A stretch of DNA of 64,000 bases from positions 744,001-808,000 of the forward strand of contig NC_015172.1 in NCBI RefSeq assembly GCF_000190635.1, in the 5' to 3' direction. The notes under the pieces are model-generated. The model did no database searches and was not told the origin of the DNA. It saw nothing but the letters and a program-made list of their open reading frames with translations. How positions within the stretch are numbered: the stretch's first letter is position 1; each line of letters begins with the position of its first letter. This document shows positions 10,110-38,331 of this stretch, one piece after another. Made by a program: the position numbers and the translations under genes. Source of the DNA: Syntrophobotulus glycolicus DSM 8271 (GTDB taxonomy: Bacteria; Bacillota; Desulfitobacteriia; Desulfitobacteriales; Syntrophobotulaceae).

Positions 10110-10110
10110 C

Positions 10111-10584
10111 ATGGCGGCAGTAAGCGATATTATTCGCAAAACGGTAGATGTGTTAAAAGCAGAATCCGGGCTGGCCGAAATCAAGGAATGGCAGGAAGTC
10201 AATAACTTAATTACTTTAAAGTCGCCTGGGATCTCAGTCGGATTAGAAAAAGAAACCTTTACGGCATATGACCGCAAAGTTGATAATGCTGAAGCCAATT
10301 TAAAGATCTATGTCTGGGTCAAAGATTCGGATCCCGCTAGAGGTGAGGCGGAAGTCAGAACACTGTCCCACATTGTCAGGCTTGCACTGGCAAAGGATCT
10401 ATATCTCAGCGGGCTTGTTGATTCGGGCTTTGTTTCCGGAATTGAATACCTGACAGCGGATGCCGGAAAAGAAATCCTAATCCACCTGGCGGAGATCGAT
10501 TACCAAGTAAGTTATCTGGCCGAACGGACCGAATATGCCCCAGCCCTGGATATCGGAGAAATCAAGATTGAAAACGATGATTAA
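10111..10584 (+). CDS. DUF1834-like tail protein (Mu gp37 position)
   Basis: A 157-residue protein starting 1 base after the previous stop with AAGGAG well placed. Position just before the sheath and the mixed alpha/beta pattern (AEANLKIYVWVKDSDPARGEAEVRTL shortened) fit the DUF1834/gp37 group of tail terminator-like proteins. I do not see a fully diagnostic motif, so the family call is moderate. Confidence 0.55.
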   Translation: MAAVSDIIRKTVDVLKAESGLAEIKEWQEVNNLITLKSPGISVGLEKETFTAYDRKVDNAEANLKIYVWVKDSDPARGEAEVRTLSHIVRLALAKDLYLSGLVDSGFVSGIEYLTADAGKEILIHLAEIDYQVSYLAERTEYAPALDIGEIKIENDD

Positions 10585-10605
10585 ATTTAGAAAGGAGTGT
10601 TAGAA

Positions 10606-17593: not shown

Positions 17594-17995
17594 ATGGCAG
17601 ATGAAATGGATGGCTTGGGCACATCATTGAGCTTCAGCCTGAATGAAAGTTTGAGAGTAAATTACTTAGGGCACTATGATCTGGTTTCCGGAAACGAAAA
17701 TGTTCATCAGGCTGTGCAGCTGCGGCTTAATACTCCGGTGGGATCCTTGGTACTGCACCCGGAATATGGTAATGCGATATTTGATATTATCTCCGAACCA
17801 ATGGATGATGATTTCCCAGTTAAAGCTGAACTGGCGGTAAGAGAGTGCCTGGCTACCGAAACACGGATAAATGTAGCTAGTGTGGCAGTCAAGATGCTTA
17901 ATGAAAAAAGAACCGCACAAATCTTTATTAAATATTCCATAAATGAAGATGCGGAAATAACTGAGATCATGCTGGAGGTGCCATATGGAATTTAA
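17594..17995 (+). CDS. Baseplate wedge protein, GPW/gp25-like (Mu gp46)
   Basis: A 133-residue wedge protein. The run ENVHQAVQLRLNTPVGSLV, then HPEYGNAIFD, is the signature of the gp25/W family, which is lysozyme-like in fold but structural. Its end overlaps the J-like gene by 11 bases. Confidence 0.8.
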   Translation: MADEMDGLGTSLSFSLNESLRVNYLGHYDLVSGNENVHQAVQLRLNTPVGSLVLHPEYGNAIFDIISEPMDDDFPVKAELAVRECLATETRINVASVAVKMLNEKRTAQIFIKYSINEDAEITEIMLEVPYGI

Positions 17996-19094
17996 GGATT
18001 ATAAACAGGCTAGAGATGAAATGATTGCTAAAGCGGCAGACTCTTCCGATCTCACGGACTGGAGTCCTGGGACAGCAAATTTATCTTTAATGGAAGCCGT
18101 GGCAACCGGCTTGGCCGGAGGGTATCACACCATACAGCAATTGATGGAAACGCATTTTATCACTACCGCTGGGCTTGAATACTTAAAGCTTTATGCAGAG
18201 GAATTAGACGTTCCTTGGGATCCAGGAGTAGAAGCTGTCGGAGAGATTATTTTTTCAAGGACTTCACCGGCACCTTTCAGTGAAAACATTCCTGCCGGAA
18301 CAACATTTCGCACTTTAGATGGAAAAATTGAAGTTGAAACGACAGCAGATTGTACATTGGCCCAGGGAGAAACGGAAGTGTCGGCGGCCGCCATGGCGAC
18401 AATGGTCGGCACCACCGGAATGCTACAGACGGGTACCCAGATGAAGATCTTCGGGATCTCTGTCAGTCTGGTGGAAAGTGTCGTTGTAGCGTCTCCGGGA
18501 TTTACAGGTGGCTGCGATCCAGAAACGGCGGAGCAACTTCGGCAGAGACTCTTAATCATTCGCCGTTCTCCGGGAACGTCAGGCAACAAGGCGCAGTATA
18601 TAAAATGGGCGCTCAGCATTTCAGGGGTTGGCGGGGCTTATGTGGAGCCGCTATGGGCCGGGCCGGGAACGGTTAAGGTTTATTTAATTGACACGGCGAA
18701 GCAGCCGGCCTCCGCTGGACTGATAGAAATTGTGCAGAATTATATTGATCCACTTCCCCATGGTTCCGGATCCGGGCAGGCGCCGATCGGCGCGGTGGTG
18801 ACTATCGTCGCGGCGCCGGCGGTGACGATAACCATCACAGCCACAGTGGCCCTTATTCCGGAAATGGACCTGGAAGAAGTCACAGAGAAATTCATTTCCG
18901 GTGTGCAAAGTTATTTGAGTGAAATTGCCTATTCCGCCGATCCAACAGTCCGCATTGCTAAGGTAGGCAATATTCTCCTGGACACTCCGGGCATCATTGA
19001 TTATTCCGAGTTGAACATCAATAGCGGTACCGGAAATATAACAGTCGGTCCGGGATCTGTGGCTATTTTAGGGACGGTGAGCCTGAATGAATAG
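17985..19094 (+). CDS. Baseplate J-like protein (Mu gp47)
   Basis: A 369-residue baseplate J family protein, which links wedges and tail fibres. Visible landmarks are DLTDWSPGTANLSLMEAVA, the IPAGTTFRT segment, the GGCDPETAEQLRQRLL and GTSGNKAQYIKWALSI motifs near residues 168-210, and VKVYLIDTA. Overlaps at both ends suggest coupled translation. Confidence 0.88.
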   Translation: MEFKDYKQARDEMIAKAADSSDLTDWSPGTANLSLMEAVATGLAGGYHTIQQLMETHFITTAGLEYLKLYAEELDVPWDPGVEAVGEIIFSRTSPAPFSENIPAGTTFRTLDGKIEVETTADCTLAQGETEVSAAAMATMVGTTGMLQTGTQMKIFGISVSLVESVVVASPGFTGGCDPETAEQLRQRLLIIRRSPGTSGNKAQYIKWALSISGVGGAYVEPLWAGPGTVKVYLIDTAKQPASAGLIEIVQNYIDPLPHGSGSGQAPIGAVVTIVAAPAVTITITATVALIPEMDLEEVTEKFISGVQSYLSEIAYSADPTVRIAKVGNILLDTPGIIDYSELNINSGTGNITVGPGSVAILGTVSLNE

Positions 19095-24369: not shown

Positions 24370-24786
24370 TCATCCCTCTATAGGAAGAATATTTCTCCAA
24401 CCTCCTGCGGCTGTAATATCTTCTGCATCAGCACAAGCATAAGCCTCGCATAAAAACCCCGAAACCTCTGATCCATCCGACAGTTCAATTTTGCCGAACC
24501 CAAGAGGAGCAGGGATGGCGTCAACAAAGCTGCCAAACTGAGTGTGAGGCATTTCCCAGATTTCAACCTGGATTGACGCTCCTCCATGGCTTCTTTTCAG
24601 CAGGCCTGGTTTGGCCGGGTTTGTCGGCAGTTTAAATAATTGATATTTGGATGCTGTTGATGTCTCGCGGATAAAAAGGGCTTCATGTTCCAGCATCTGT
24701 TTTTCCAACGGCAGCCCGCGCATGTGCAAACCGCATACGGCAACAAAGATGTTGCCTTCTTTTGGTTCAAAATGTGTTATTTTCAT
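24370..24786 (-). CDS. Stand-alone C-terminal domain of allophanate hydrolase
   Basis: A 138-residue protein matching the C-terminal domain normally fused to the AtzF amidase: GLPLEKQMLEHEALFIRETS, YQLFKLPTNPAKPGLLKR, the GGASIQVEIWEMP and FGSFVDAIPAPLGFGKIEL segments, and GFLCEAYA...DITAAGGWRNIL. In full-length enzymes this domain finishes conversion of the N-carboxycarbamate intermediate. The AtzF amidase at 34814 lacks it. Its promoter matches that of the main operon. GTG 24789 directly precedes ATG 24786; AGAGGTGA lies upstream. Confidence 0.85.
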   Translation of the reverse strand: MKITHFEPKEGNIFVAVCGLHMRGLPLEKQMLEHEALFIRETSTASKYQLFKLPTNPAKPGLLKRSHGGASIQVEIWEMPHTQFGSFVDAIPAPLGFGKIELSDGSEVSGFLCEAYACADAEDITAAGGWRNILPIEG

Positions 24787-24845
24787 CACGTTGTCTCACC
24801 TCTTTTTAAATTTACTAAGTTGGCTTCTTATTGTAAGATAGTCAC

Positions 24846-24893: not shown

Positions 24894-25715
24894 ATGAACC
24901 CAAGTATACTAATTGGTGAAATGGCTCAGATACACGGGATATCTGCTCAAACATTGAGGTATTACGACAGGATTGATCTATTTAAACCTTCCTATACAAA
25001 TGAAGAATCCGGTTACAGGTATTATGGGATTGAACAATTTGCCCATCTGGAATCCATTCTTTTTTTAAAGGGCATGGGAATGCCGCTTAAAGAGATTAAA
25101 AATTATTTTCAAAATCGGGGATTGAATTCCATGCTGGAATTATTGCAGAAAAGAATGGATTTTATTAATAACGAAATAGTTAAGTTAAGTAATAAAAAGA
25201 AAAAAATAGGTTCGATACTGGAAAAAGTAAATAATTATCTGGATAAGAATATTATGGGGAAATGCCGAATTCAACAGATGCCGCAAAGAGATATGCTGTT
25301 TTTTACTTTTGGGACCAGCGATATCTATGTTGAGCATGAGTTTGGCATTAAAAAACTGGGTATGGAGATCAAGAATATTGATGAACTTTACCTGAATCCG
25401 TTCGGGTCAGTTATTGACAAAAGCGAAATAGAAAAAGGCGGCAGTTCAAATTACAAAGGAATTACCATGGTATTCGAGAACGAAGTGCCTGATAACGTTG
25501 CTACCGTTCCTTTGCCGGAAGGTACCTATGCCGTAATGGCCTTTGCAGGAACATATAAAGATATTGATCTATATTTGCAGGAAATAATAAAGTGGATCAA
25601 GGAAAACGGCTGGCGGATCATAGGGGATGCACTGGTCTTGATTATTACAGACAAAGCCTATTCCGATTATGAATATGAGTACATCAGTGAAATACAAATA
25701 CCTGTAAATAAATGA
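24894..25715 (+). CDS. MerR-family regulator with GyrI-like effector domain
   Basis: A 273-residue regulator. N-terminal winged helix-turn-helix (IGEMAQIHGISAQTLRYYDR, then GYRYYGIEQFAHL), a dimerisation coiled coil (about residues 80-125), and a C-terminal effector-binding domain of the BltR/GyrI kind. Such proteins untwist promoters with 19-bp spacers on ligand binding. Exactly two such promoters lie beside it: one for the AtzF C-domain gene and one for the PII/ABC operon. The ligand is unknown; guanidine or a pathway product is a reasonable guess. Confidence 0.85.
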   Translation: MNPSILIGEMAQIHGISAQTLRYYDRIDLFKPSYTNEESGYRYYGIEQFAHLESILFLKGMGMPLKEIKNYFQNRGLNSMLELLQKRMDFINNEIVKLSNKKKKIGSILEKVNNYLDKNIMGKCRIQQMPQRDMLFFTFGTSDIYVEHEFGIKKLGMEIKNIDELYLNPFGSVIDKSEIEKGGSSNYKGITMVFENEVPDNVATVPLPEGTYAVMAFAGTYKDIDLYLQEIIKWIKENGWRIIGDALVLIITDKAYSDYEYEYISEIQIPVNK

Positions 25716-25782: not shown

Positions 25783-25813
25783 TTGACATTATAATTACTA
25801 TAAGGTTTATATT
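25783..25813 (+). promoter_or_regulatory. MerR-type promoter of the PII/guanidine operon
   Basis: TTGACA (25783-25788) and TATATT (25808-25813) are separated by 19 bases. The spacer contains ATTACTATAAGGTTTA, nearly the same as in the minus-strand promoter at 24846-24876. This points to joint control by the MerR-type protein encoded just upstream. Confidence 0.8.
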
Positions 25814-25848
25814 AGTATCAGGTTATATAGCCAATGGATACGGAGCAA

Positions 25849-25929
25849 AGGTGCTGCTGGAAAAGCGGGCACCTCTGTTTTTTTTCGGGGACAGCCTGCG
25901 GATCAGGTCAGTCCCCGAATTTTATTTTT
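25849..25929 (+). promoter_or_regulatory. Leader with two tandem terminator-like hairpins
   Basis: AGGTGC/GCACCT (25849-25874) is followed by a run of eight T; CGGGGAC/GTCCCCG with an inner CCTG/CAGG (25886-25917) is followed by ATTTTATTTTT. Both lie between the promoter and the first gene, so they should stop transcription unless antitermination occurs. I see no match to a guanidine-II or guanidine-III aptamer. An ANTAR-type or other antitermination system is possible but unproven. Confidence 0.6.
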
Positions 25930-25947: not shown

Positions 25948-26274
25948 ATGGTCATGATCGAAGCATTTGTTAGGCCGGAGAAAACAGATTTTATCCTTGC
26001 CTGTTTACTTGAGCAGGGCTTTCCGGCAGTAACACGGGTCAGCGTTCTGGGAAGAGGAAAACAAAAAGGGTTAAAGGCTAACGCTGTTTACTATGGAGAA
26101 CTGCCCAAAGAATTAATCATTATGATTGTGGAAGACAAGGATGAAGATAAGGTTGTCGAGGCTATGATGAAAAGCGCTAAGACCGGAGATGAAGGGGCTT
26201 ACGGCGATGGAAAGATCTTTGTAACGCCGGTCAGTTCAGCTTACACAATCAGCAGCGGCAAGGCTGAATTATGA
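25948..26274 (+). CDS. PII signalling protein, NifI1-like
   Basis: A 108-residue PII protein with the NifI1 look: MIEAFVRPEKTDFILACLLE, GFPAVTRVSVLGRGKQKGLK, a short T-loop with VYYGELPKE, and GDGKIFVTPVSSAYTISSG. NifI proteins normally sense 2-oxoglutarate and ATP and shut off nitrogenase. Here no nif genes are present; the target may be the ABC importer or the carboxylase. ATG 25948 follows GGAGAGGTGA. A second PII gene lies 27 bases downstream. Confidence 0.82.
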   Translation: MVMIEAFVRPEKTDFILACLLEQGFPAVTRVSVLGRGKQKGLKANAVYYGELPKELIIMIVEDKDEDKVVEAMMKSAKTGDEGAYGDGKIFVTPVSSAYTISSGKAEL

Positions 26275-26301
26275 TAGCGGCATTGCGGAATGGAGGTTAA
26301 T

Positions 26302-26658
26302 ATGAAAAAAGTGATGATCATAATCAGGCCGGAGAAATACCGCTATACTAAAGAAATTCTGGAACAAGAAGGTTTCGATGCTTATAGTGTGGTCAATGTC
26401 TTGGGCAGGGGCAAAAAACAGGTTGAGTTTTCTCTGGGTGATGAAATCCATAGTACCGGTGACAAAAACGATCATCGTTTAATCACAAAAAAATTAATCA
26501 CCATTTACATTAACGACGAGGAAGAGGAGAAACTTTGCAGCACTGTCATAAGAAGCAACCAGACTGAACAGGCAGGCGACGGCAAAATATTTGTTGTACC
26601 CGTTAAGCGTAGTATCAGAGTAAGGACCGGCGAAGAGAATGAAAATGTCTTGATCTAG
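26302..26658 (+). CDS. PII signalling protein, NifI2-like
   Basis: A 118-residue second PII protein: KKVMIIIRPEKYRYTKEILE, DAYSVVNVLGRGKKQVEFSL, then KLITIYINDEEEEKLCSTVI and GDGKIFVVPVKRSIRVRTGE. The central T-loop region lacks the usual uridylylated tyrosine motif and resembles NifI2. GGAGGT at 26292-26297 favours ATG 26302 over ATG 26290. NifI1 and NifI2 act as a hetero-oligomer in known cases, so this pair is probably one regulator. Confidence 0.8.
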   Translation: MKKVMIIIRPEKYRYTKEILEQEGFDAYSVVNVLGRGKKQVEFSLGDEIHSTGDKNDHRLITKKLITIYINDEEEEKLCSTVIRSNQTEQAGDGKIFVVPVKRSIRVRTGEENENVLI

Positions 26659-26746: not shown

Positions 26747-27799
26747 ATGAAAAAATTAATCTCTTTATTATTGGTCCTGGTATTGTCAATGATCGGCGGC
26801 TGTTCGTCTCAGCAGGAAGCCGGCAGCAATACACCGGCCGACAAGAAAATTACGATAGGAACTTCGCCTTATCCAGCATGGTATGTCTGGTATATAGCCA
26901 AAGAAGAGAACCTGTTTGCAAAATACGGACTGAATGTTGATCTGGTATATTTCCCAGTTTATAGTGATAGCTTACAGGCTTTTAACACAGGCAAACTTGA
27001 CATGCTCAATATTGCCGCTTGTGATACGATAGCTCCTTATAATCAGGGCGTAAAATTCAAAATTATAGATATTAATGACAATTCCAACGGAGCAGATGGC
27101 TTGGTGGCTAAAAATAAATATAAAAATATTAAGGACCTCAAGGGCCAGCAGGTTGTTACAGAATATGGTACGATCGAGCATTTCTTTCTGTTGAAGGCTC
27201 TGGAATCGGTTGGAATGAAGGAAAATGATATCACTTATACAAATATGACAGTAAACGACAGCGGAATGGCTATGCTTTCAGGAAAAGTGGAAGCGGCTTG
27301 TGTTTGGGAACCCTCACTGTCACAAGCTCTTGCCGGCAAAGAAAACCACCTGATTTACAGTTCGGCCGATACACCTGGACTCATACCAGATTTGTTGATC
27401 GCCAGCGACGACTTGATCAAGAATAACCGCGAGGATGTATTGAATCTGATTAATGCCTATCTTGATGCCCTGGAGTTCTACAACGAGAATCCTGACAAAG
27501 CGGCAGCGGATATGGCCAAACAGGCTGGTGTCTCTGCGGATGAGATGAAACAAATGATGGCCGGATCAAAATTATTCTCTATTCAAGACAACATCTTGGC
27601 GATGACCGAAAAAAAGGACAGTTACTTATATTTGCCTTATACGTTGACCGAAACGGCAAAATTTCTTAAGAGTGTAAACATGATCGACAATATTCCGGCT
27701 AACCCTGAAGCGATGCTTGATACATCATTTTTAGAAGAAATCAGTAAGAACAGGCCGTCCTTTACTCCTCCGGATACCAGAGCTTTAGCGAAGAAATAA
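26747..27799 (+). CDS. ABC importer substrate-binding lipoprotein (guanidine-type, SsuA/NMT1 fold)
   Basis: A 350-residue lipoprotein: signal peptide ending in the lipobox LSMIGGC (Cys about residue 24), then an NMT1/SsuA-like periplasmic-binding fold (TIGTSPYPAWYVWYIAKEEN, FNTGKLDMLNIAACDT, VEAACVWEPSLSQAL). It catches the substrate outside the cell for the two following genes. Operon context with guanidine-degrading genes suggests guanidine or a relative as substrate; the fold alone would only say small nitrogen or sulfur compound. Confidence 0.85.
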   Translation: MKKLISLLLVLVLSMIGGCSSQQEAGSNTPADKKITIGTSPYPAWYVWYIAKEENLFAKYGLNVDLVYFPVYSDSLQAFNTGKLDMLNIAACDTIAPYNQGVKFKIIDINDNSNGADGLVAKNKYKNIKDLKGQQVVTEYGTIEHFFLLKALESVGMKENDITYTNMTVNDSGMAMLSGKVEAACVWEPSLSQALAGKENHLIYSSADTPGLIPDLLIASDDLIKNNREDVLNLINAYLDALEFYNENPDKAAADMAKQAGVSADEMKQMMAGSKLFSIQDNILAMTEKKDSYLYLPYTLTETAKFLKSVNMIDNIPANPEAMLDTSFLEEISKNRPSFTPPDTRALAKK

Positions 27800-27814: not shown

Positions 27815-28606
27815 ATGAGAAAGTTCTTTGCCATCCGTACAAAAATCAATTTGAAAATATTTAACGCTCTTGCGGCAGGTGTCTTTCTGCTGATCCTGAT
27901 CCTCTGGATGGTGTTGAGTGAACAAGGATCAATCAGTCCCATATTTCTGCCAACGCCCCGGTCAGTTTTTGGATATCTTGCCAATGTAATGACTACCGGT
28001 CAAATCTGGTCCGATATCGGCATCAGCTTTTACCGCATCTTTATGGGATTTATTCTTGCCGCTGTCATAGGTATCCCCCTAGGCATTTTGGCCGGAACGT
28101 TCAATTTTGCGGAAGCATTGATTCAGCCGGTATCTGAATTTATCCGCTATATGCCAGTACCAGCCTTTGTTCCTTTAATCATGGTTTGGGTGGGGATTAA
28201 TGAAAGTGCCAAGATTGCGGTAATATTCCTTGGTACACTATTTCAGCTTATTCCCATGGTTGCGGACAGTGTCAGGGCTGTTCCGGATGATCTTTTAAGT
28301 GCCGCGTACACCTTGGGGGCTAAGCCGCGTACGGTTATTTTAAAGGTTATTATACCGGCTATAGCCCCCAGGACGATGGATACCCTGCGTATCATGATGG
28401 GCTGGGCCTGGACATACCTGGTTGTTGCCGAGCTGGTGGCGGCCAATAGCGGTTTAGGTTATAGCATACTAAAAGCCCAGCGTTTTTTAAAAACAGATGC
28501 CATTTTTGGAGGAATTTTAATCATAGGCTTCCTGGGATTAATGACCGACAGACTCTTTGTGCTGGCGAACAGGAAATTGTTTCCCTGGGCGGAGGGAGGC
28601 AGCTAG
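27815..28606 (+). CDS. ABC importer permease (SsuC/TauC-like)
   Basis: A 263-residue membrane protein with about six helices and the permease EAA-type loop (SAAYTLGAKPRTVILKVIIP, near residues 165-185), which docks on the ATPase. It starts 15 bases after the binding-protein gene with AAAGGGGGG upstream. The TauC/SsuC family moves small organic N or S compounds; substrate assignment comes from context. Confidence 0.88.
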   Translation: MRKFFAIRTKINLKIFNALAAGVFLLILILWMVLSEQGSISPIFLPTPRSVFGYLANVMTTGQIWSDIGISFYRIFMGFILAAVIGIPLGILAGTFNFAEALIQPVSEFIRYMPVPAFVPLIMVWVGINESAKIAVIFLGTLFQLIPMVADSVRAVPDDLLSAAYTLGAKPRTVILKVIIPAIAPRTMDTLRIMMGWAWTYLVVAELVAANSGLGYSILKAQRFLKTDAIFGGILIIGFLGLMTDRLFVLANRKLFPWAEGGS

Positions 28607-29446
28607 ATGTTTTGGAAAAAGAAGAATGTTGCACGTGGAAACAACACTGTGATCGAAGTGCGTGTGGCCTCTAGCAAGATCGTTGTTGACAATCTGAGGA
28701 AAGCCTATGGCAGCAAGGAAAAGCAAACGACTGCCATAGACAATGTCAGTATTGAAATCCTGGACAATGAATTTGTCAGTATAGTCGGGCCTTCGGGCTG
28801 CGGAAAATCTACTCTGCTCCGTATATTAGCCGGGTTGGATGAGGCAACCGGAGGGACTGCTACGGTTGATGACACTTTAATCGATAGACCAGGAGCGGAC
28901 AGAGGAATGGTATTCCAGTCCTATACACTCTTTCCCTGGCTGACAGTAGAAGAAAATATTCAGTTTGGGCTGAAGATTAAAGGAATACCCAAAAAACAGG
29001 CTAATGAAATTGTTGACCGCTACCTTGACATTATTAAGCTGAAGCCTTTCCGTAAAAGTTATCCCAAGGAATTATCGGGGGGAATGAAGCAAAGAGTGGC
29101 GATTGCCAGGGCCCTGGCAAACAGCCCCAAAGTATTGCTGATGGACGAACCATTTGGAGCTTTGGATTCTCAGACTAAATCCGAGATGCAGCTTTTAATG
29201 AGACAGATTTGGCAGGTAGAAAAGCCAACCGTGGTTTTTATTACACACGACATTGAAGAAGCAGTGTTTCTCTCTACTCGGATTTATGTTATGAGCGGGC
29301 GGCCAAGTGGAATAAAGGCCAATATCCCTATCTATTTGCCATATCGCAGGTCAATCAGTCTTAAGGAAACGATGGAATTTATGGGATATAGACACAAGCT
29401 CACTGCTTTGCTGCAGGAAAAAGAAGAATCCATTGGGTTGGAATAA
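28607..29446 (+). CDS. ABC importer ATPase (SsuB/TauB-like)
   Basis: A 279-residue ATPase: Walker A GPSGCGKST (about residues 63-71), Q-loop FQSYTLFPW, signature LSGGMKQR, Walker B VLLMDEPFGALD and the switch histidine in VFITHDIEEA. The ATG directly abuts the permease stop, so translation is coupled. The N-terminus has about 20 extra basic residues before the ABC core. Confidence 0.92.
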   Translation: MFWKKKNVARGNNTVIEVRVASSKIVVDNLRKAYGSKEKQTTAIDNVSIEILDNEFVSIVGPSGCGKSTLLRILAGLDEATGGTATVDDTLIDRPGADRGMVFQSYTLFPWLTVEENIQFGLKIKGIPKKQANEIVDRYLDIIKLKPFRKSYPKELSGGMKQRVAIARALANSPKVLLMDEPFGALDSQTKSEMQLLMRQIWQVEKPTVVFITHDIEEAVFLSTRIYVMSGRPSGIKANIPIYLPYRRSISLKETMEFMGYRHKLTALLQEKEESIGLE

Positions 29447-29451
29447 ATAAA

Positions 29452-29600
29452 GTGAACAGCAGCGAATGCCTTCTAGGGTTCCGCGGAATGTATTGCTTAC
29501 TTCCGGGCTGGTCCAAGAGGAGGCGCGTGCCGATCGGCGCGTACACGGAGGGAAAAAAACCCGGGAGGTCTGGATTTACAGCTTTCCCGGTTTATTTCTG
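29452..29600 (+). ncRNA. Guanidine-I (ykkC) riboswitch with terminator
   Basis: The conserved ykkC elements appear in order: TTCTAGGGTTCCG (29471-29483), GGGCTGGTCCAAGAGG (29505-29520), TACACGG (29542-29548) and CCCGGGAGGT (29560-29569). A terminator then forms from CCGGGA (29561-29566) and TCCCGG (29585-29590) followed by TTTATTT, overlapping the aptamer's last helix, which is the usual ON-switch design. It sits inside the operon, between the importer and the carboxyguanidine deiminase genes, so guanidine would raise expression of the catabolic part. Confidence 0.93.
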
Positions 29601-29632
29601 TTCTGAAATCATTTGTTAAGGAGTTGATTAGC

Positions 29633-30370
29633 TTGACAAGCAATTTAGGGAATATGAATACAGGTTGGAAGACAACCCTGCGTTCCGGTGAAAAATGGTC
29701 GGGAATAGTTGGCAGAAACAAATTGTTAAAATTTACGGCGATGGAAGCAGGTGCCAATATTGCAATGCTGCTTTTTAACAGCAGGGATCTAACTGAAAAA
29801 TATAGTATGCCGGATACGCTTAAAGCCCAGCATACGGCCCATCTTACCAGAGGAAACGTATTGATGAGCGATAATGGGCGTATCTTGGCAAGCCTGGTTG
29901 AGGATAGACTGGAATGGCATGATACCATTTCGGGTATCACTACGCGGGTTCAGACAGATGAGAAATATGGCAGGACGGATTATCAACAGAAAAAGAATAT
30001 GTGGCTGCGCAGCGGCTATGAGAATTTCATGGTAGAGCTGGTTAGGAATGGGCTGCAGCCGCGCGACATGGCAGCTCCGGTTAATCTTTTTTCCAAAGTG
30101 CAATGTGATGATGAAGGAAATATGCGTTATATTGAAGGGCATTGCCAACAGGGAGATACGGTTGCCCTGCGTACGGAAATGGATGTTTTAATCATTTTAT
30201 CCAACACCCCCAATCCGCTTGACGGGAGAACCGCCTACCCTTCCGTACCTGTGGCGATAGAAGTGCTGCCGGCCATACCGGCAGATTTCCAGGATTATTG
30301 TGTAAATAACTGTCCCGAGAACCGGAGAGCTTATGAGAATACTCGGGAGTACTATTTATTGCTCGAATGA
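29633..30370 (+). CDS. DUF1989 protein, carboxyguanidine deiminase subunit (first of pair)
   Basis: A 245-residue member of the urea carboxylase-associated (DUF1989) family: KFTAMEAGANIAMLLFNSRD, DTLKAQHTAHLTRGNVLMSD, CQQGDTVALRTEMDVLIILS. Members long called UAAP1/UAAP2 are known to form carboxyguanidine deiminase (CgdAB), which releases ammonia from carboxyguanidine to give allophanate. TTG 29633 follows TAAGGAGT with good spacing; a TTG at 29624 is too close. It is the first gene after the guanidine riboswitch. Confidence 0.85.
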   Translation: MTSNLGNMNTGWKTTLRSGEKWSGIVGRNKLLKFTAMEAGANIAMLLFNSRDLTEKYSMPDTLKAQHTAHLTRGNVLMSDNGRILASLVEDRLEWHDTISGITTRVQTDEKYGRTDYQQKKNMWLRSGYENFMVELVRNGLQPRDMAAPVNLFSKVQCDDEGNMRYIEGHCQQGDTVALRTEMDVLIILSNTPNPLDGRTAYPSVPVAIEVLPAIPADFQDYCVNNCPENRRAYENTREYYLLLE

Positions 30371-30460
30371 CTGATTGATAGGCTTCCGGTGAGTAACTGG
30401 ATTAGCGCAGGAGAGATTTCAGTTAAGCTATAGGATGAGTATGATGAGGGAGGAATGAAA

Positions 30461-31114
30461 ATGCAGGGTTCATTTAATAGAAAAGAAAGCAGCAGACGGG
30501 AAAAAGACGCCGTTTATACCAAGATTATTCCGGCTGGTGAAGGATGGCTGCATGAACTGGAACCGGAACAAGTATTAAGGATAGTGGACATGGAAGGCAA
30601 CCAGGCTGTAGATACAATGTTTTATGATGCGGATAATCCGCAAGATCATTATAGTGTTACCCAAACCATAACCGGGCAGGCCAATATATTCCTGACGGCC
30701 GGTTCTGTGCTGCGAGCGGAGTCAGGCAAACCTCTCCTTACGATAATAGCCGATACTTGCGGCAGGCATGACACTCTGGGAGGAGCATGTTCCGCCCAAA
30801 GCAATACGGTAAGATATTCTCGTGATATCCAGTTCATGCACAATTGCCGGGATACGTTTATCAATGAACTTGCCAAGAGTAACGGTCTTTATCAAAAACG
30901 TGACTTAGCTCCCAATATCAATTTCTTTATGAATGTTCCGGTAACACCGGAAGGCGGACTGGAATTTGCCGACGGGGTATCAGCCTCCGGCTGTTACGTT
31001 GAATTGCGGGCCGAATGTCGGGTCAGTGTGCTTATCAGCAACTGCCCGCAGCTTAACAATCCTTGCAATGCTTATAATCCGACACCTATACAATTGCTGA
31101 TTTGGAGTAACTAA
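30461..31114 (+). CDS. DUF1989 protein, carboxyguanidine deiminase subunit (second of pair)
   Basis: A 217-residue paralogue of the previous protein: VLRIVDMEGNQAVDTMFYDA, TLGGACSAQSNTVRY, and a C-terminal CRVSVLISNCPQLNNPCNAY. Conserved Cys/His/Asp residues suggest a metal site, as expected for the deiminase. GAGGGAGG at 30446-30453 favours ATG 30461 over ATG 30455. It lies 13 bases before the carboxylase gene. Confidence 0.85.
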   Translation: MQGSFNRKESSRREKDAVYTKIIPAGEGWLHELEPEQVLRIVDMEGNQAVDTMFYDADNPQDHYSVTQTITGQANIFLTAGSVLRAESGKPLLTIIADTCGRHDTLGGACSAQSNTVRYSRDIQFMHNCRDTFINELAKSNGLYQKRDLAPNINFFMNVPVTPEGGLEFADGVSASGCYVELRAECRVSVLISNCPQLNNPCNAYNPTPIQLLIWSN

Positions 31115-31127
31115 AGGAGTTTTTAGG

Positions 31128-34100
31128 ATGTTCACAAAAATTCTGATTGCCAACAGGGGAGCGATCGCTCACAGAATAGAACGGACCCTGCAAAAAATGA
31201 AGATAAAGTCCGTCGCTGTGTATACCAAGGCTGACCGTGACAGCCTGCATGTCAGCGGCGCTGATGAAGCCGTGCTCATCGGCGAAGGTCCTGCCAAAGA
31301 CAGTTATTTAAATGCGGAGCTGATCCTTGAGACTGCCGTTGCCGCCGGTGTTCAGGCTATCCATCCGGGATACGGATTCTTAAGCGAAAATGTTGATTTT
31401 GCCAAGGCGTGCGCGGAAAAAGGCATGATATTTATCGGGCCGGCGCCAGAGCAGTTAGAGCTGTTCGGGCTTAAGCATTCTGCACGTGAGATGGCAGAAA
31501 AAGCAGGAGTTCCTTTGCCTAAAGGGACCGGTCTGTTGGCGAATTTAGAGGAAGCGCTTACCGCGGCAGGACAAATCGGCTATCCGGTCATGCTTAAAAG
31601 TACGGCAGGCGGCGGCGGCATAGGGATGAGAATTTGCCAGAATGCTGAAAGTCTATGTGCAGCATATGAATCGGTAAAATACCTGGCTAAAACCAACTTT
31701 AAAGACGATGGTATTTTTTTGGAAAGCTATATTGCCAGGGCCAGGCATATTGAGGTTCAGATTTTCGGCAGCCGTTCCGGTGAGATCATCGCTGTCGGCG
31801 AGAGGGACTGTTCTGTCCAAAGGAGGAACCAAAAGGTGCTGGAAGAGACCCCGGCACCAGGCCTTCCTCAGCATATCAGGAAGGAGATGCATGAAGCGGC
31901 AGTCAGACTGGCAAAATCAGCCGGTTACCAAAATGCGGGAACAGTTGAATTTCTATATGATACTCAGGCCCAGCAGTTTTATTTTTTGGAAGTGAATACT
32001 AGACTTCAGGTTGAACATGGGGTTACAGAAGAACTGTACGGGATCGATCTGGTAGAGTGGATGATCCGAGAAGCGGCCGGAGAGCTTGATCATCTGGCAG
32101 GCAGGCTAAACTGGCCGGATGGTCACAGCATCCAGGCCAGAATCTATGCTGAAGATTGCTGGAATAATTTTATGCCGAGCAGCGGCCGCTTAGATCAAGT
32201 AACTTTTTCTGAACAGGCAAGAACTGAGACTTGGATTCAGGATAATGTTGAGGTAACTACGCTGTATGACCCGATGCTGGCCAAGATCATCGTAAAAGGG
32301 AAGGACCGGAAGGATGCGCTGCAAAAATTAAAAGAGGCTCTTGCCGGTACGGGCATCTACGGGCTGACGAGCAATCTCCAATATATCGAATCTCTGTTGG
32401 AAAACGGTGATTATACCCTGGGCAGGCTTGATACGCATATGCTCGATGAATTCTGGCCTGAATCCCCGGCCCTTGAGGTCCTGGACGGGGGGATTCAGGC
32501 CACCGTCCAGGATTATCCCGGCCGCACAGGCTACTGGAATGTAGGGGTTCCCCCCTGCGGTCCTATGGATTCCCAGTCTTTTCGATTGGGGAACCTTTTG
32601 CTTGGTAACGATGAAGGACTCCCGGGTATTGAATTGACGCTTAAAGGGGGAAGTTACCGCTTCAGAAGCAGGGCCTGGTTTTGTTTGACAGGCGCCGACA
32701 TGAAGGCAAAGCTTGACCATCAGGAGGTGCCAATGTATACGCCTGTTGAGGCTATGGCAGGGCAGACCCTGGCATTTGGTGAAGCAGAATGTGGAATAAG
32801 GACATATTTGCTGATTGGCGGAGGCTTTGATATTCCTGAGGTGTTAGGAAGTTCATCCACTTTTACGTTAGGCGGTTTCGGCGGGGTAAACGGCCGGGCA
32901 TTGCGGAAAGGGGACGTCCTGCGGTATAAAGGGCTGAAACAGCAGCCGCTGATGAAGACAATACCTGCAGACAGCCGGCCCGGAATAAGGAATGATTGGA
33001 CAATCGGTGTTATCCCCGGGCCTCATTGTACGGTTGAATTCCTGAAAGCCGGATTTTTAAGGGGACTGGTATCCACAGAATGGGAAGTCCATTTCAACAG
33101 CTCGCGTACCGGGGTGCGGCTCATCGGACCAGCGCCTGAATGGAACAGGCAAGATGGGGGGGAGGCCGGACTCCACCCTTCAAATATTCATGATACGGCT
33201 TATGCGGTCGGAACGCTGGATATGACGGGCGATATGCCGATTCTGCTTGGTCCTGACGGGCCAAGCCTGGGAGGGTTTATTTGTCCGGTCACAACCGCAT
33301 CGGCAGAACTCTGGAAGATTGGTCAGCTTCATCCGGGAGACAAAGTGAGGTTTCAGTTGCTGACAATCGAGGAAGCGGAGCAGCTTTGGCGTGAACAGGA
33401 AATAACATTAGCCGGAATTGTTAAAGAGATCAAAACAATTCCTACAGGAAAGAAACCTGTGGCAAATCGTCTTCGAGAGGAACAGTTACAGGAGAAACAA
33501 CTGCTGCCGGAGGACTATCCTGTTCTGTACAGCAACAGTAAGGACTTTCCACTGTCGGTTAAAATACGTTGTGCCGGAGATGCCTGCCTGCTTGTGGAAT
33601 ACGGAGAAATGGAACTGGATCTGCGCCTGAGGTTCCGTGTCCACTCGCTTATGCAGGCGATACAGGAGAAACAGGCCATTCCAGTAATAGATCTGACCCC
33701 TGGCATCCGATCTCTCCAGCTTCATATCGACATGAAAAAAACAAAGATCAGAGAAGCAGTTCAGAAAATTATAGAGATTGAGGGAGAACTTCCTCCCTTG
33801 GAATCGGTAAAACTGCCTTCGCGTATAGTGGAACTGCCGCTATCCTGGAATGATCCCGGGGCCAGAACTGCGATGCAGCGCTATCAGCAAAATGTAAGGC
33901 CGGATGCTCCGTGGTGCCCAGATAATATTGAATTTATCCGGAGAATCAACGGACTGGATCGTATGGATGCTGTTCAGCAGATTCTATTTGATGCGACGTA
34001 TCTTGTTTTGGGCCTCGGCGATGTTTATCTGGGTGCGCCGGTAGCAGTTCCGCTTGATCCCAGGCACAGGCTGGTAACAACAAAATACAATCCTGCCAGG

Positions 34101-34772
34101 ACCTGGACACCGGAAAATGCCGTAGGGATTGGCGGTGCTTACCTCTGCGTTTACGGTGTCGAGGGACCTGGGGGATACCAGCTTACCGGCAGAACAATCC
34201 AGATGTGGAACAGATTGCGTTCCACAGAGAGTTTTGAGAAAGGAAAACCTTGGCTGCTGAACTTTTTTGATCAAATAAGATTTTACCCGGTTTCTGCGGA
34301 AGAACTTCTCCAACTGCGGGAAGATTTTTTAAGAGGAAAATTTAATGTGAAAATAACGGAGACCACGTTTGATTTCGGTGAGTATCTTGGCTTTCTCGAA
34401 GGAATAAAACAGGAGGCGACTGCTTTTAAGAATCATCAGCAAGCGGCCTTTAATGCCGAGCGGGAGAGCTGGAAACAGCTTGGCTTAGCCGAATATGTTT
34501 CGGAACAACCGCCTGTCCCGGATGATGAGGCAAATGTGCTGCCTGAAGGTACGGAGGGAATATACGCCAATGTTCCCGGCAGTGTATGGAAGGTACTGGT
34601 CAGGGAAGGGGAACAGGTCAAAAAAGAGCAGCCGCTGGTCATCATGGAAAGCATGAAAATGGAGTTCGCCCAAAACGCTTCAAATGACGCAGCGATAGAA
34701 AAGGTATTTGTCAAACCGGGAGATATAGTAAATTCCGGTCAAATCTTAATATGGTTGAAGCCCAGCTGCTAA
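31128..34772 (+). CDS. Biotin-dependent guanidine/urea carboxylase
   Basis: A 1214-residue multidomain enzyme. Residues 1-445 are biotin carboxylase (KILIANRGAIAHR, STAGGGGIGMR, ERDCSVQRRNQK). About 448-770 is the KipA-like half (VQDYPGRTGYWNVGVPPCGP) and about 805-1060 the KipI-like half of the carboxyltransferase. About 1140-1214 is the biotinyl domain with VIMESMKMEF, the modified lysine being near residue 1177. Such enzymes are often annotated urea carboxylase, but next to a guanidine riboswitch and DUF1989 pair they carboxylate guanidine. It needs biotin, supplied by the following operon. Confidence 0.9.
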   Translation: MFTKILIANRGAIAHRIERTLQKMKIKSVAVYTKADRDSLHVSGADEAVLIGEGPAKDSYLNAELILETAVAAGVQAIHPGYGFLSENVDFAKACAEKGMIFIGPAPEQLELFGLKHSAREMAEKAGVPLPKGTGLLANLEEALTAAGQIGYPVMLKSTAGGGGIGMRICQNAESLCAAYESVKYLAKTNFKDDGIFLESYIARARHIEVQIFGSRSGEIIAVGERDCSVQRRNQKVLEETPAPGLPQHIRKEMHEAAVRLAKSAGYQNAGTVEFLYDTQAQQFYFLEVNTRLQVEHGVTEELYGIDLVEWMIREAAGELDHLAGRLNWPDGHSIQARIYAEDCWNNFMPSSGRLDQVTFSEQARTETWIQDNVEVTTLYDPMLAKIIVKGKDRKDALQKLKEALAGTGIYGLTSNLQYIESLLENGDYTLGRLDTHMLDEFWPESPALEVLDGGIQATVQDYPGRTGYWNVGVPPCGPMDSQSFRLGNLLLGNDEGLPGIELTLKGGSYRFRSRAWFCLTGADMKAKLDHQEVPMYTPVEAMAGQTLAFGEAECGIRTYLLIGGGFDIPEVLGSSSTFTLGGFGGVNGRALRKGDVLRYKGLKQQPLMKTIPADSRPGIRNDWTIGVIPGPHCTVEFLKAGFLRGLVSTEWEVHFNSSRTGVRLIGPAPEWNRQDGGEAGLHPSNIHDTAYAVGTLDMTGDMPILLGPDGPSLGGFICPVTTASAELWKIGQLHPGDKVRFQLLTIEEAEQLWREQEITLAGIVKEIKTIPTGKKPVANRLREEQLQEKQLLPEDYPVLYSNSKDFPLSVKIRCAGDACLLVEYGEMELDLRLRFRVHSLMQAIQEKQAIPVIDLTPGIRSLQLHIDMKKTKIREAVQKIIEIEGELPPLESVKLPSRIVELPLSWNDPGARTAMQRYQQNVRPDAPWCPDNIEFIRRINGLDRMDAVQQILFDATYLVLGLGDVYLGAPVAVPLDPRHRLVTTKYNPARTWTPENAVGIGGAYLCVYGVEGPGGYQLTGRTIQMWNRLRSTESFEKGKPWLLNFFDQIRFYPVSAEELLQLREDFLRGKFNVKITETTFDFGEYLGFLEGIKQEATAFKNHQQAAFNAERESWKQLGLAEYVSEQPPVPDDEANVLPEGTEGIYANVPGSVWKVLVREGEQVKKEQPLVIMESMKMEFAQNASNDAAIEKVFVKPGDIVNSGQILIWLKPSC

Positions 34773-34813: not shown

Positions 34814-36157
34814 ATGATTATCCTGCCTGAAAAACTTACGCTGTCCTGGTTAAGAGAGCATTATCTGCAAAGTAAAATTGACCCGGAACAGGTCATAGCT
34901 GAGATAAGCTTACGAGCGGAAGCGGCAGCGAATATGAGTATTTGGATCGTCCCTCCTGATCCTGAATGGATCAGGCCGTATTTGGACAGGTTATCTGAAC
35001 TGGAAATAGACAGTCATCCGTTATGGGGAATCCCCTTTGCGATAAAGGACAATATAGACCTGGCGGGTGTGCTGACTACGGCTGCTTGCCCGGATTATGC
35101 CTATATGCCGGATCAAAACGCGGCCGTGGTTGACCGGCTGATCGAGGCAGGCGCGATTCCCGTAGGGAAAACAAATCTTGATCAGTTTGCAACCGGACTA
35201 GTGGGGACAAGAAGCCCGTTTGGAGCAGTGCCTAATGCTTTGCGGCAAGAATTGATAAGCGGAGGGTCGAGTGCAGGTTCGGCAGCATCTGTTGCCAAAG
35301 GACAGGCCGTTTTTGCCCTGGGAACGGATACAGCCGGTTCGGGGCGTGTTCCGGCAGCTTTAAATGGGCTGTACGGCTGGAAACCAAGCTGCGGCGCTTG
35401 GCCGCTGAGTGGTGTTGTTCCGGCCTGCGCCAGTCTTGACTGTGTTACGGTCTTTGCGAATTCCATAGATGATTGCCTGGTTGTCGATCATGCTGTACGC
35501 GGACGAGATGCGGAAGATCCCTGGTCACAAGAATATCCTTATCCGGAGCCCCAAAGGCCTGAAAGGATCTTTTTACCGGCAAAGGAACCTGAATTTTTCG
35601 GCCCATTTGCCGAAAATTATCAACTGGCCTGGCATAAGACTGTGGATAGAATCAGGAAAATCTGGCCGGAAACATCAACAATTGACGGTTCACTGCTGGA
35701 ACGAGCTGCCGGCATATTGTACGAAGGCCCCTGGATTGCTGAAAGGTGGGCTGATTTAGGCCGGTTTGTGGAGACACACCCCGGCAGCGTATTGGATGTC
35801 ACCGAGAAAATTTTGCGCAGTGGGATACATTTTGACGCAGCTTCTCTTTTTGAAGCAATCCATGAATTACAATCGATGAAAGCGCAGGTCAAAAAGCTGC
35901 TTCATGAGGCGGTTCTTATCTTACCAACTTGCGGGGGAACATGGACCAGGGAACAGGTAATCGAGGATCCTGTTAAGAAAAACAGCGCCCTCGGCAAGTA
36001 TACGAATCATTGCAATCTCCTGGATCTGTGCGCGGTTGCAGTGCCTTCCGGCTGGGCGGCAGAAAACCTTCCTTTCGGGATCACTCTATTTGCGCTTGCG
36101 GGGAAGGAAGGTCTGCTTGCCGGATTCCTATCAAATGCAGGGAAGCACAAAGGATAG
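34814..36157 (+). CDS. atzF: Allophanate hydrolase, amidase part only
   Basis: A 447-residue amidase-signature enzyme: Lys78 (WGIPFAIKDN), the cis-serine in SGGSSAGSAAS (about residues 149-159) and the nucleophile near Ser176 (GTDTAGSGRVPAALNGLYGW). It cleaves allophanate to ammonium and CO2. Full AtzF is around 600 residues; this one ends right after the amidase domain (AENLPFGITLFAL...), without the C-terminal domain, which is encoded at 24370-24786. It closes the guanidine operon. Confidence 0.9.
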   Translation: MIILPEKLTLSWLREHYLQSKIDPEQVIAEISLRAEAAANMSIWIVPPDPEWIRPYLDRLSELEIDSHPLWGIPFAIKDNIDLAGVLTTAACPDYAYMPDQNAAVVDRLIEAGAIPVGKTNLDQFATGLVGTRSPFGAVPNALRQELISGGSSAGSAASVAKGQAVFALGTDTAGSGRVPAALNGLYGWKPSCGAWPLSGVVPACASLDCVTVFANSIDDCLVVDHAVRGRDAEDPWSQEYPYPEPQRPERIFLPAKEPEFFGPFAENYQLAWHKTVDRIRKIWPETSTIDGSLLERAAGILYEGPWIAERWADLGRFVETHPGSVLDVTEKILRSGIHFDAASLFEAIHELQSMKAQVKKLLHEAVLILPTCGGTWTREQVIEDPVKKNSALGKYTNHCNLLDLCAVAVPSGWAAENLPFGITLFALAGKEGLLAGFLSNAGKHKG

Positions 36158-36217: not shown

Positions 36218-36240
36218 AAGAGTTGAGGAGCAGTACAAAA

Positions 36241-36801
36241 ATGAGTCAAAGTCAGACGCCTAATCTACGGATAATGGTTTTTGCATGTCTTTTTACGGCA
36301 CTAATCATGATCGGAGGTTATCTGAGCTTTCCAATTCCGTTCAGTCCGGTCCCTATTGTACTGGCGGATTTCTTCATCATGCTTGCGGGTTTACTCTTAG
36401 GAGCATCCTGGGGTAGCGCCAGTGTAGGGTTGTTTCTTTTTTTAGGTGCGCTCGGGCTTCCGGTTTTTGCGGGCGGAAAAGCAGGATTGGCAGTTTTCTT
36501 TGGGCCGACAGGAGGGTTCCTGTTCGGATATTTGGCCGGGGTTTTTGTTATCGGGCTGATCGCTGGGAAAGGAAAATCTTCATTGATCAAAGATAGCGTT
36601 GCCTTAATTGTGGGCAACATGCTTTTGTACAGTATGGGCGTTACTTGGCTGAAGCTGGCTTTGAAAATTTCCTGGATAAAAGCATCGGCCTTGGGGTTTT
36701 TGCCCTTCGTACCAGGGATGATCATCAAAATTATTGTTGCCGCAGCCTTGATTAAACGATTAAGGCCCCTTCTTCAGTCGCTTATCACTGATCAAAGATA
36801 A
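36241..36801 (+). CDS. bioY: Biotin ECF transporter S component BioY
   Basis: A 186-residue membrane protein with six helices and the BioY pattern (GGYLSFPIPFSPVPIVLADF, LLLGASWGSASVGLFLFLGALGLPVFAGGKAG in pieces, GPTGGFLFGYLAGVFVIG). It binds biotin in the membrane and works with the EcfA ATPase and EcfT encoded next. GTTGAGGAG precedes ATG 36241. It lies just after the BirA operator. Confidence 0.95.
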   Translation: MSQSQTPNLRIMVFACLFTALIMIGGYLSFPIPFSPVPIVLADFFIMLAGLLLGASWGSASVGLFLFLGALGLPVFAGGKAGLAVFFGPTGGFLFGYLAGVFVIGLIAGKGKSSLIKDSVALIVGNMLLYSMGVTWLKLALKISWIKASALGFLPFVPGMIIKIIVAAALIKRLRPLLQSLITDQR

Positions 36802-36815
36802 AGAGGGAGGGTTAA

Positions 36816-37568
36816 ATGAGCGGCATTCTTGAAACTCAACAGTTAACACATATTTTTCCAAACGGCAAAGCGGCAATTCAGGAGATCAACCTTTCCATAA
36901 AAGGGGGGGAGTTCGTGATTATTGCCGGTCCTAACGGTTCAGGAAAGACCGTTTTGATACGGCATTTTAATGGACTCTTCCTCCCTACGAAAGGGAAAGT
37001 ATTATTGGAAGGGGAGCCGATCACGAAAGATCTGACTGAAGCAAGAAAAAAAATCGGCTTGATTTTTCAGAATTCGGATAGTCAAATCGTTGGTCAGACT
37101 GTTGCTGATGACGTGGCGTTTGGTCCGGAAAATCTCAATTTATCCCGTAAGGAAGTTGATCATCGCGTGAAAGAATCACTGGAAGCTGTAGGATTAAGCG
37201 ATTTGGCTAACCAACAGCCGCATACTCTGTCCGGAGGTCAGAAAAAAAAGCTGACAGTGGCAGGTGTGCTTGCCATGAACCCCCAAATTATTGTTTTTGA
37301 TGAACCATTTACTGGATTGGATTATCCGGGAGTACTTCAGGTATTAAAACAAATCGTTGGCCTGCACAAAAACGGGCATACGATTATTTTAGTAACCCAT
37401 GAGCTGGAGAAAACGCTTGCCCATGCAGGCCGCTTGATTATTATGGAAAAGGGGCGTATTGTCAGGGATGGTGAACCCAGCCAGCTCATTAATGAGGTGG
37501 AGTTATACGGGATAAGGAGACCTTATGGACAAAATCGAAGTGTTGAGACGATGACATGGCTGAGTTGA
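36816..37568 (+). CDS. bioM: ECF transporter ATPase (BioM/EcfA)
   Basis: A 250-residue ABC ATPase of ECF type: Walker A GPNGSGKT, Q-loop IFQNSDSQIVGQTVADDVAFGPEN (the ECF-type VxxDVAFGPEN motif), signature LSGGQKKK and Walker B IIVFDEPFTGLD. It powers biotin uptake with BioY and the T component. A single ATPase suggests a homodimer. Confidence 0.93.
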   Translation: MSGILETQQLTHIFPNGKAAIQEINLSIKGGEFVIIAGPNGSGKTVLIRHFNGLFLPTKGKVLLEGEPITKDLTEARKKIGLIFQNSDSQIVGQTVADDVAFGPENLNLSRKEVDHRVKESLEAVGLSDLANQQPHTLSGGQKKKLTVAGVLAMNPQIIVFDEPFTGLDYPGVLQVLKQIVGLHKNGHTIILVTHELEKTLAHAGRLIIMEKGRIVRDGEPSQLINEVELYGIRRPYGQNRSVETMTWLS

Positions 37569-38320
37569 ATATTTTTCATTACATCCCCCGGGCATCAATT
37601 GTTCATTGCATGGATGGGCGAATAAAGCTGATATGTATGATCCTATTTACTTTGGCGGCAGGGATGGCCGCCAGGGTATTTGATTTGGCCATTTTAACGT
37701 CAGTATTGCTTATTACGCTGATAAGCTCCAGATTACCTCTCAGAAACTTATTCAGGGACATAAGGTATTTTCTTTTTTTAATCGGTATGATAATTGTTGT
37801 GAATTCCTTTAGCGTCCCGGGTACGCCGATTAAGAATATTCCGATTCACAGTTTTACTTGGGAGGGGCTTAATTCAGGCCTGTTATACGGATGGAGGCTT
37901 ATGTTAATTATTCTATTATGTGTGATTTTAACAGGAAGCACTTCTATTTCATCATTAAAAAACGTTATTGAATGGTTTCTCGCTCCCATCCCTTTTGTCC
38001 CGGAAGCCAGGGTAGCTGCTATGTTCAGTTTGACCTTTGTTTTGATACCGCTCATTTTTGATCAAGCTTCCGAAATGCGGGAGGCCCAGAAAGCACGGTG
38101 TATTGATGAAAGAAAAAACCTGTTAAAACGGGTAAAATTATATCTCTATCCACTGTTGCTGCATACGTTTATGCGTGCCGATGAAATGGTACTGGCAATG
38201 GAATCAAGGTGCTATTCCGAAGTTCGGACTAAGGCAGTTTTTCAAACGAACAGTAAGGACTGGCTGCTTTTCACGCTTTCAATGCTGATTTGTTCGATGA
38301 TCTTTTTTCATCGTTTTTAG
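37556..38320 (+). CDS. bioN: ECF transporter T component (BioN/EcfT)
   Basis: A 254-residue membrane protein with about five helices. Coupling motifs typical of EcfT are seen in the cytoplasmic arms (AQKARCID and ESRCYSEVRT-like ARG-type segments near residues 180 and 220). It overlaps the ATPase gene by 13 bases and completes a BioMNY set. Confidence 0.9.
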   Translation: MAELNIFHYIPRASIVHCMDGRIKLICMILFTLAAGMAARVFDLAILTSVLLITLISSRLPLRNLFRDIRYFLFLIGMIIVVNSFSVPGTPIKNIPIHSFTWEGLNSGLLYGWRLMLIILLCVILTGSTSISSLKNVIEWFLAPIPFVPEARVAAMFSLTFVLIPLIFDQASEMREAQKARCIDERKNLLKRVKLYLYPLLLHTFMRADEMVLAMESRCYSEVRTKAVFQTNSKDWLLFTLSMLICSMIFFHRF

Positions 38321-38331
38321 GGGGGAAAATC

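Follow-up and report, generated by a model that had tools for sequence, protein, structure and literature searches.

A NifI-derived PII protein pair encoded with a NitT/TauT importer in a guanidine operon of Syntrophobotulus glycolicus: descent, conserved linkage and a probable role in the control of uptake

To our knowledge, NifI-type PII proteins are known only as off-switches of nitrogen-fixing enzymes. In the window analysed here, a stretch of 64,000 nucleotides from the Syntrophobotulus glycolicus DSM 8271 genome, a first-pass annotation had placed two adjacent PII genes of NifI style at the head of an operon with an ABC importer, a DUF1989 pair, a carboxylase and an AtzF-type hydrolase, and the ORFs, the Pfam matches and the series of genes on one strand agree with this description. 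The locus raises the question of what such a pair would control outside a nitrogenase operon.

PII1 (NifI1-type, 108 aa, positions 25948–26274, forward strand) and PII2 (NifI2-type, 118 aa, 26302–26658, forward strand) were assigned from their ORFs, Pfam matches and tree positions. Both ORFs are intact, and each is preceded by a ribosome-binding-site-like sequence (AGGAG/GGAGG). The Pfam P-II matches (E = 2e-20 for PII1 and 7e-20 for PII2; 73 and 72 bits against a cut-off of 25) place both in the PII superfamily, and AF2 models matched GlnZ (Z 16.5) and GlnK1 (Z 13.3) in a fold search. The best solved relative of PII1 was 9p1x_H (4e-27, the runner-up being at 4e-16), an entry that is labelled solely as 'P-II family nitrogen regulatory protein', contains 12 copies of a 105-aa chain and 6 copies of a 125-aa chain, and was absent from the fold-search results; we infer that it is a NifI complex. 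The gene order, with PII1 adjoining PII2, is that of NifI-type pairs. Tyr never occurs at position 51 of PII1 or PII2 in the importer-linked (hereafter ABC-type) pairs, which also lie outside the GlnB/GlnK clade. Since the neighbours of the window pair are importer and guanidine genes and not nifH and nifD, it was classed as NifI-derived and not as a nitrogenase NifI.

Downstream, on the same strand, are genes for a lipoprotein substrate-binding protein (SBP) of a NitT/TauT (SsuA-family) importer (26747–27799), its permease (27815–28606) and its ATPase (28607–29446), followed by a Guanidine-I riboswitch aptamer (RF00442, 82 bits, 29462–29569). The enzyme genes of the operon, also on the forward strand, encode the DUF1989 proteins UAAP1 (29624–30370, start codon uncertain) and UAAP2 (30455–31114), both above their cut-offs and both carboxyguanidine deiminase subunits, a biotin-dependent guanidine carboxylase of 1214 aa that is annotated as urea carboxylase (31128–34772), and an allophanate hydrolase of 447 aa consisting of the amidase part only (34814–36157). 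An allophanate hydrolase C-terminal domain (AH_C, PF21986) has a gene of its own upstream, in divergent orientation (24370–24789, reverse strand), so that the hydrolase is split between the operon and a separate gene; the short hydrolase form also occurs in Desulfosporosinus relatives. Asp at the positions corresponding to K. lactis 1330 and 1584 serves as the criterion for guanidine carboxylases in PMC11410670, and the window enzyme has both signature residues, D698 opposite N1330 of the K. lactis protein and D965 opposite its D1584. These two residues and the riboswitch support the guanidine chemistry that had been proposed for the operon, and the DUF1989 pair and the amidase part with its separate AH_C gene also belong to that pathway. 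Genes for BioY, an ECF ATPase, an ECF T component and BirA (36223–39330) directly follow the guanidine operon, i.e. biotin uptake and ligation genes adjoin the gene of a biotin-dependent carboxylase. A phage baseplate J protein is encoded upstream of the locus (17985–19094), probably as part of a prophage or tail-like element.

The position of the riboswitch after the ATPase gene and before the DUF1989 genes puts the PII-transporter part upstream of the guanidine switch, and a riboswitch heading the PII genes was rejected on these grounds. Riboswitches before the enzyme genes were also found in three other loci (L024–L026), but none reached the gathering score in the scanned Lachnospiraceae-type and Enterococcus loci. 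Directly upstream of the PII genes lies a gene for a MerR-family protein with a GyrI-like ligand domain (24894–25715, forward strand), which is a candidate regulator of the PII-ABC genes, and between the two is a promoter-like TTGACA-N19-TATATT (25783–25813, forward strand) with an inverted repeat in its long spacer. This arrangement, typical of the geometry of MerR-activated promoters, is kept in the same three loci. The PII1 leader also contains a small ANTAR-like hairpin, AGC[AAAGGT]GCT (25844–25855, forward strand), just before a terminator-like hairpin with a T-run. Hairpins with an AAnGRY loop just 5' of the terminator were found in 9 of 11 PII-importer operon leaders, as against 4/33 nif and 0/12 gln leaders, with covarying stems (AGC/GCT, AAC/GTT, TGC/GCA, GAC/GTC); the nitrogenase locus of the same genome has such a hairpin (L013, 7176, reverse strand). 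The element resembles one half of an ANTAR antiterminator, and the genome encodes one ANTAR protein.

The descent of the pair was examined with trees. In a first tree of 81 PII proteins, PII1 grouped with NifI1 and PII2 with NifI2, apart from GlnB/GlnK, and the NifI1/NifI2 style noted at first sight was borne out for both proteins. Later trees, to which 86 more PII proteins from profile-search loci were added, were built separately for PII1 and PII2 with GlnB as outgroup (supports for the outgroup split 100/100 and 100/99). The 17 importer-linked PII1 proteins formed a single clade with moderate support (93/70, present in 94% of the bootstrap trees), and the 17 importer-linked PII2 proteins did so with supports of 99/98. 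Both clades lay inside the clostridial nif NifI proteins and had an identical sister group, made up of two nif loci (L103 and L108). In the simplest reading, a nif NifI pair was recruited to an importer a single time, with both genes moving as one unit.

Twelve PII genes are present in the S. glycolicus genome, and four NifI-type pairs were found among them, of which two accompany nitrogenases and the other two importers. The absence of nif genes from the surroundings of the pair holds for the window operon but not for the genome, which has a nif operon (nifI1-nifI2-nifH-nifD-nifK) and an anf operon (anfH-nifI1-nifI2-anfD-anfG-anfK) with NifI pairs of their own (both in locus L013). The Anf system of this organism is already on record (PMC3464626). 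The second importer cluster (L014, 6876–17236) has the order PII1-PII2-permease-ATPase-SBP-ureohydrolase-third PII-regulator-urease. Its third PII is very divergent (11454–11741), its regulator is CdaR-like, an Rfam 5_ureB_sRNA lies antisense to ureB, and among solved structures the ureohydrolase is closest to metformin hydrolase and guanidinases, with agmatinases clearly behind.

In other organisms, the arrangement PII1-PII2-SBP-permease-ATPase was found among named genomes in Desulfosporosinus, Lactonifactor, Murimonas, Ruminiclostridium and several Lachnospiraceae and Oscillospiraceae, and among annotated plasmids on a megaplasmid of Enterococcus raffinosus. NitT/TauT importer genes accompanied the PII pair in 17 of 17 ABC-type loci, nearly always in direct adjacency, although these sequences share descent and so do not represent 17 independent events. 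The enzymes beside them were more variable. A guanidine carboxylase was the commonest (window, L024–L035, L045, L057), a ureohydrolase was found in two loci (L014, L148), and in others ADH/ALDH genes without guanidine genes took this place (L036/L098, L097; with a C-N hydrolase in one). Where the guanidine enzyme genes run divergently from the importer operon or are separated from it by kilobases (L030 and L031), the pair remains within that operon. The upstream regulator also varied by lineage (MerR, LuxR-type or PucR/CdaR-type) around a constant importer.

A reverse test was made with Bacillota operons that had been found via UAAP2 and not via PII; the 22 loci from the scan of named genomes, which were chosen by PII, were left out of this count. 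The pair was present in 7/7 operons with the importer (G000, G034, G035, G466, G468, G469, Enterococcus) and in 0/5 without it (G392, G660, G671, G764, Niallia), giving a hypergeometric p of 1/792. The operons without the importer had other permeases or none that were recognised (G392, Niallia), lay near a Pot-type ABC system (G660, G764), or had just one PII gene, of GlnB type, together with an amino-acid permease (G671). No PII genes were found in the Pseudomonadota guanidine carboxylase operons (L058–L061). In a sampled survey (795 genome draws, covering the phylum and one further family), 47 NifI1-like loci were read, and all but two were in a nif/anf operon or beside a NitT/TauT importer; the exceptions were single genes, one of them adjoining an amino-acid permease.

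As judged from these gene neighbourhoods, the conserved partner of the PII pair is the importer and not the carboxylase. The link of the pair with guanidine genes is conserved in other genomes, and of the two outcomes by which the first-pass annotation would have been refuted, a position of both proteins outside the NifI clades or the lack of a conserved guanidine link, neither came about. Its suggestion of control over uptake or carboxylation is narrowed to uptake, because the pair tracks the ABC importer while the enzymes change. Several further PII arrangements were seen in the course of the survey. In L065 (16160–17967) a single GlnB-type PII lies directly before an amino-acid permease and after a guanidine carboxylase operon, and in L150 (8438–10336) a lone NifI1-like PII lies directly before an amino-acid permease and after aminotransferase and alcohol dehydrogenase genes; both are further undescribed PII-transporter links. 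Four Nitrospirota loci (L040, L042–L044, near 10000–10770) have a NifI1-NifI2-like pair followed by citrate/homocitrate-synthase-like and ABC genes; the DNA read around these pairs contained no recognised nif gene.

Several carriers of the ABC-type pair (G463, G467, G469, G470) had no nifH above the NCBI cut-off, although metagenome bins, with possible gaps, are among them; the nifH match of G468 (272 bits) was also below this cut-off. The Enterococcus case, for which the plasmid sequence was the part covered, is more telling than that of the incomplete bins. Together, the distribution and the trees indicate at least one move of the NifI pair to a transporter and a later spread within Bacillota, as far as the Enterococcus megaplasmid, and this recruitment appears to extend from S. 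glycolicus to various related bacteria of gut and soil, even those without recognisable nitrogen-fixation genes.

The importer is of a type for which PII control has a precedent. Among solved structures, its ATPase came closest to CmpD and NrtD of cyanobacterial importers (about 1e-56) and its permease to CmpB (1e-21) and NrtB (1e-16), so that both components are homologous to those of Nrt-type importers. Nitrate uptake by NrtABCD is inhibited by PII through the ATPases NrtC and NrtD, to which it binds (PMC6603209), and an NrtBCD-PII complex has been solved (PDB 8wm7). An N-terminal motif, [IL]E[AV]xx[AGS][NSTR][SNTA] (IEAxxANS), located before the first strand, was found in 16/17 PII-linked ATPases, the sole exception being that of L014, and in 0/34 related ATPases that are not PII-linked (Fisher p = 2e-12, a value in which kinship overstates the independence of the sequences). 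In the window ATPase it occupies codons 16–23 (IEVRVASS; 28652–28675, forward strand). The motif is a candidate docking peptide for the PII pair, but it could instead be a marker of the clade.

Whether the pair could respond to 2-oxoglutarate and ATP, as had been proposed from the first reading, was considered from its ligand-site residues. The Mg-ATP/2-oxoglutarate site of PII trimers lies between subunits, with Q39, K58, G87 and K90 from one and T29', R101' and R103' from its neighbour (PMC8395244). PII1 of the window keeps R9, Q39, K58 and GDGK, but R101 and R103 are replaced by T and S, and three residues are inserted before YGDGK; in PII2, Q39 is replaced while R101 and R103 are kept. The same pattern runs through the ABC-type proteins, again with shared descent: PII1 has Q39, K58, G87 and K90 in 17/17, T101 in 17/17 and S103 in 17/17, and PII2 has Q39 in 0/17, R101 in 17/17 and R103 in 15/17, with an aromatic residue at position 64 (Y in 11, F in 4, W in 2). 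Complementary half-sites as a special feature of the guanidine pair were rejected, since clostridial nif NifI pairs have them too (S103 in 37/40 NifI1, Q39 in 3/40 NifI2). As read from the alignments, a complete site would require an interface between the Q39 side of PII1 and the arginine side of PII2, and these inherited half-sites predict an obligate hetero-oligomer for both ABC-type and clostridial NifI pairs. Because neither protein has both halves of the canonical site, sensing of 2-oxoglutarate and ATP is plausible for a PII1-PII2 hetero-oligomer and not for either protein by itself. The T-loop is the usual target-contacting loop of PII. That of PII1 has 16 residues in 67/67 NifI1-type proteins, whereas the T-loop of ABC-type PII2 (19–26 residues) is about 10 shorter than the long loop of NifI2 (27–37 residues), the two ranges being disjoint.

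These findings make it probable that the NifI-derived pair, moved once to a NitT/TauT importer, serves as a dedicated switch of that importer. The main competing view is that the pair controls the guanidine carboxylase (or the deiminase or hydrolase) in the way that NifI controls nitrogenase. The genes share an operon in most carriers, the enzyme uses ATP, which would make energy and nitrogen control sensible, and PII controls acetyl-CoA carboxylase elsewhere. However, the pair is present without carboxylase genes nearby (L014, L036/L098, L097, L148), is missing where a carboxylase operon has a different transporter (L049, L062, L064, L065), and stays with the importer where the enzymes lie apart (L030, L031), which makes control of the enzymes decidedly unlikely. 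It also seems rather unlikely that the adjacency reflects co-expression only, with the pair acting globally or on another target such as a transcription regulator; PII proteins commonly have several targets, and in the window, L025 and L148 the gene of a MerR regulator immediately precedes the pair, but it is the regulator that changes between lineages and the importer that does not.

Two further alternatives concern the ligand and nitrogenase itself. The importer may be the target of a pair that senses something else, e.g. ADP/AMP or guanidine, through a broken canonical site, as the loss of R101/R103 from PII1 and of Q39 from PII2, with its aromatic residue at position 64, could imply. This is unlikely, since what one protein lacks the other has, so that the two halves would come together at the PII1/PII2 interface, and clostridial nif NifI pairs show the same pattern. 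That the pair is a passenger still acting on nitrogenase in trans would agree with its NifI descent and with the nif and anf genes of S. glycolicus, but those operons have their own NifI pairs, the PII2 T-loop is altered, and the pair also occurs in carriers without nifH above the cut-off and on the Enterococcus raffinosus megaplasmid, so that a passenger role is highly improbable.

A dedicated switch of the importer could have arisen and worked as follows. A clostridial nitrogenase NifI1-NifI2 pair would have been duplicated and moved once in front of NitT/TauT ABC importer genes, and its products would form a hetero-oligomer with complete Mg-ATP/2-oxoglutarate sites at the PII1/PII2 interfaces. 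At low 2-oxoglutarate, i.e. when nitrogen is sufficient, the hetero-oligomer would bind the ATPases, perhaps via IEAxxANS, and guanidine import would stop, which would spare ATP and prevent toxic build-up; 2-oxoglutarate with ATP would release it from the importer. That inhibition would occur at low 2-oxoglutarate is assumed by analogy with NifI and Nrt, and the presumed substrate, guanidine, is taken from the neighbouring genes. The riboswitch would separately set the expression of the degrading enzymes in the window operon, and with the MerR-type promoter and the leader hairpin on the PII-importer genes, substrate and nitrogen status could be read at several levels. Blocking of guanidine import by the NifI-derived hetero-oligomer under nitrogen sufficiency is the most likely reading of the locus. 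The full combination of an obligate hetero-oligomeric, allosteric brake of an organic-nitrogen ABC importer in Bacillota, a split site and docking at IEAxxANS is put forward more tentatively, at somewhat less than even chances.

If this reading is true, PII pairs would be a portable module and not a nitrogenase part, and the locus would offer a non-nitrogenase system for studying how a two-protein PII works, in which the split ligand site would explain the need for two different PII proteins. It would also add a post-translational layer to guanidine use, for which the literature consulted discusses riboswitch control only. A literature search, mostly outside subscription papers, gave no paper joining NifI with guanidine.

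Compared with the NifI1/NifI2 nitrogenase switch of methanogens and clostridia, the ABC-type pair has the same I1-I2 order, falls in the same clades, lacks Tyr51, and shares the 16-residue PII1 T-loop and the ligand-site losses of clostridial NifI. It differs in adjoining an ABC importer without nifH/nifD neighbours, in its shorter PII2 T-loop, and in occurring in genomes without nifH above the cut-off. The control proposed here resembles that of the cyanobacterial NrtABCD (nitrate) and UrtABCDE (urea) systems, where PII acts on the importer ATPases (PMC6603209; 8wm7) and NrtD is one of the solved proteins nearest to the window ATPase, but there a general GlnB-type PII with many targets is used, whereas the window importer is encoded together with a dedicated pair of NifI type. 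As in GlnK-AmtB, where the PII gene adjoins the gene of the transporter that it regulates, the adjacent transporter is the proposed target, although GlnK is a homotrimer of the GlnK clade that acts on an ammonium channel. SbtB likewise is a dedicated PII-family regulator of one transporter (PMC10710835), as proposed for the window pair, but it is a single, distant PII-like protein and SbtA is a bicarbonate symporter. Guanidine carboxylase operons of Pseudomonadota have the same succession of SBP, permease, ATPase, UAAP1, UAAP2, carboxylase and allophanate hydrolase genes, but no PII genes (L058–L061) and an only distantly related importer. PotN, a PII-like protein placed beside a polyamine importer, was not used as a precedent, since the literature search gave only unrelated uses of this name. 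PMC6603209 points to many PII proteins, still uncharacterised, whose genes adjoin those of transporters, and PII control of transporters, including the NitT/TauT importer family, is already well known. What appears to be new is a NifI pair in that role, with a single descent from nitrogenase operons and a tie to guanidine-type importers.
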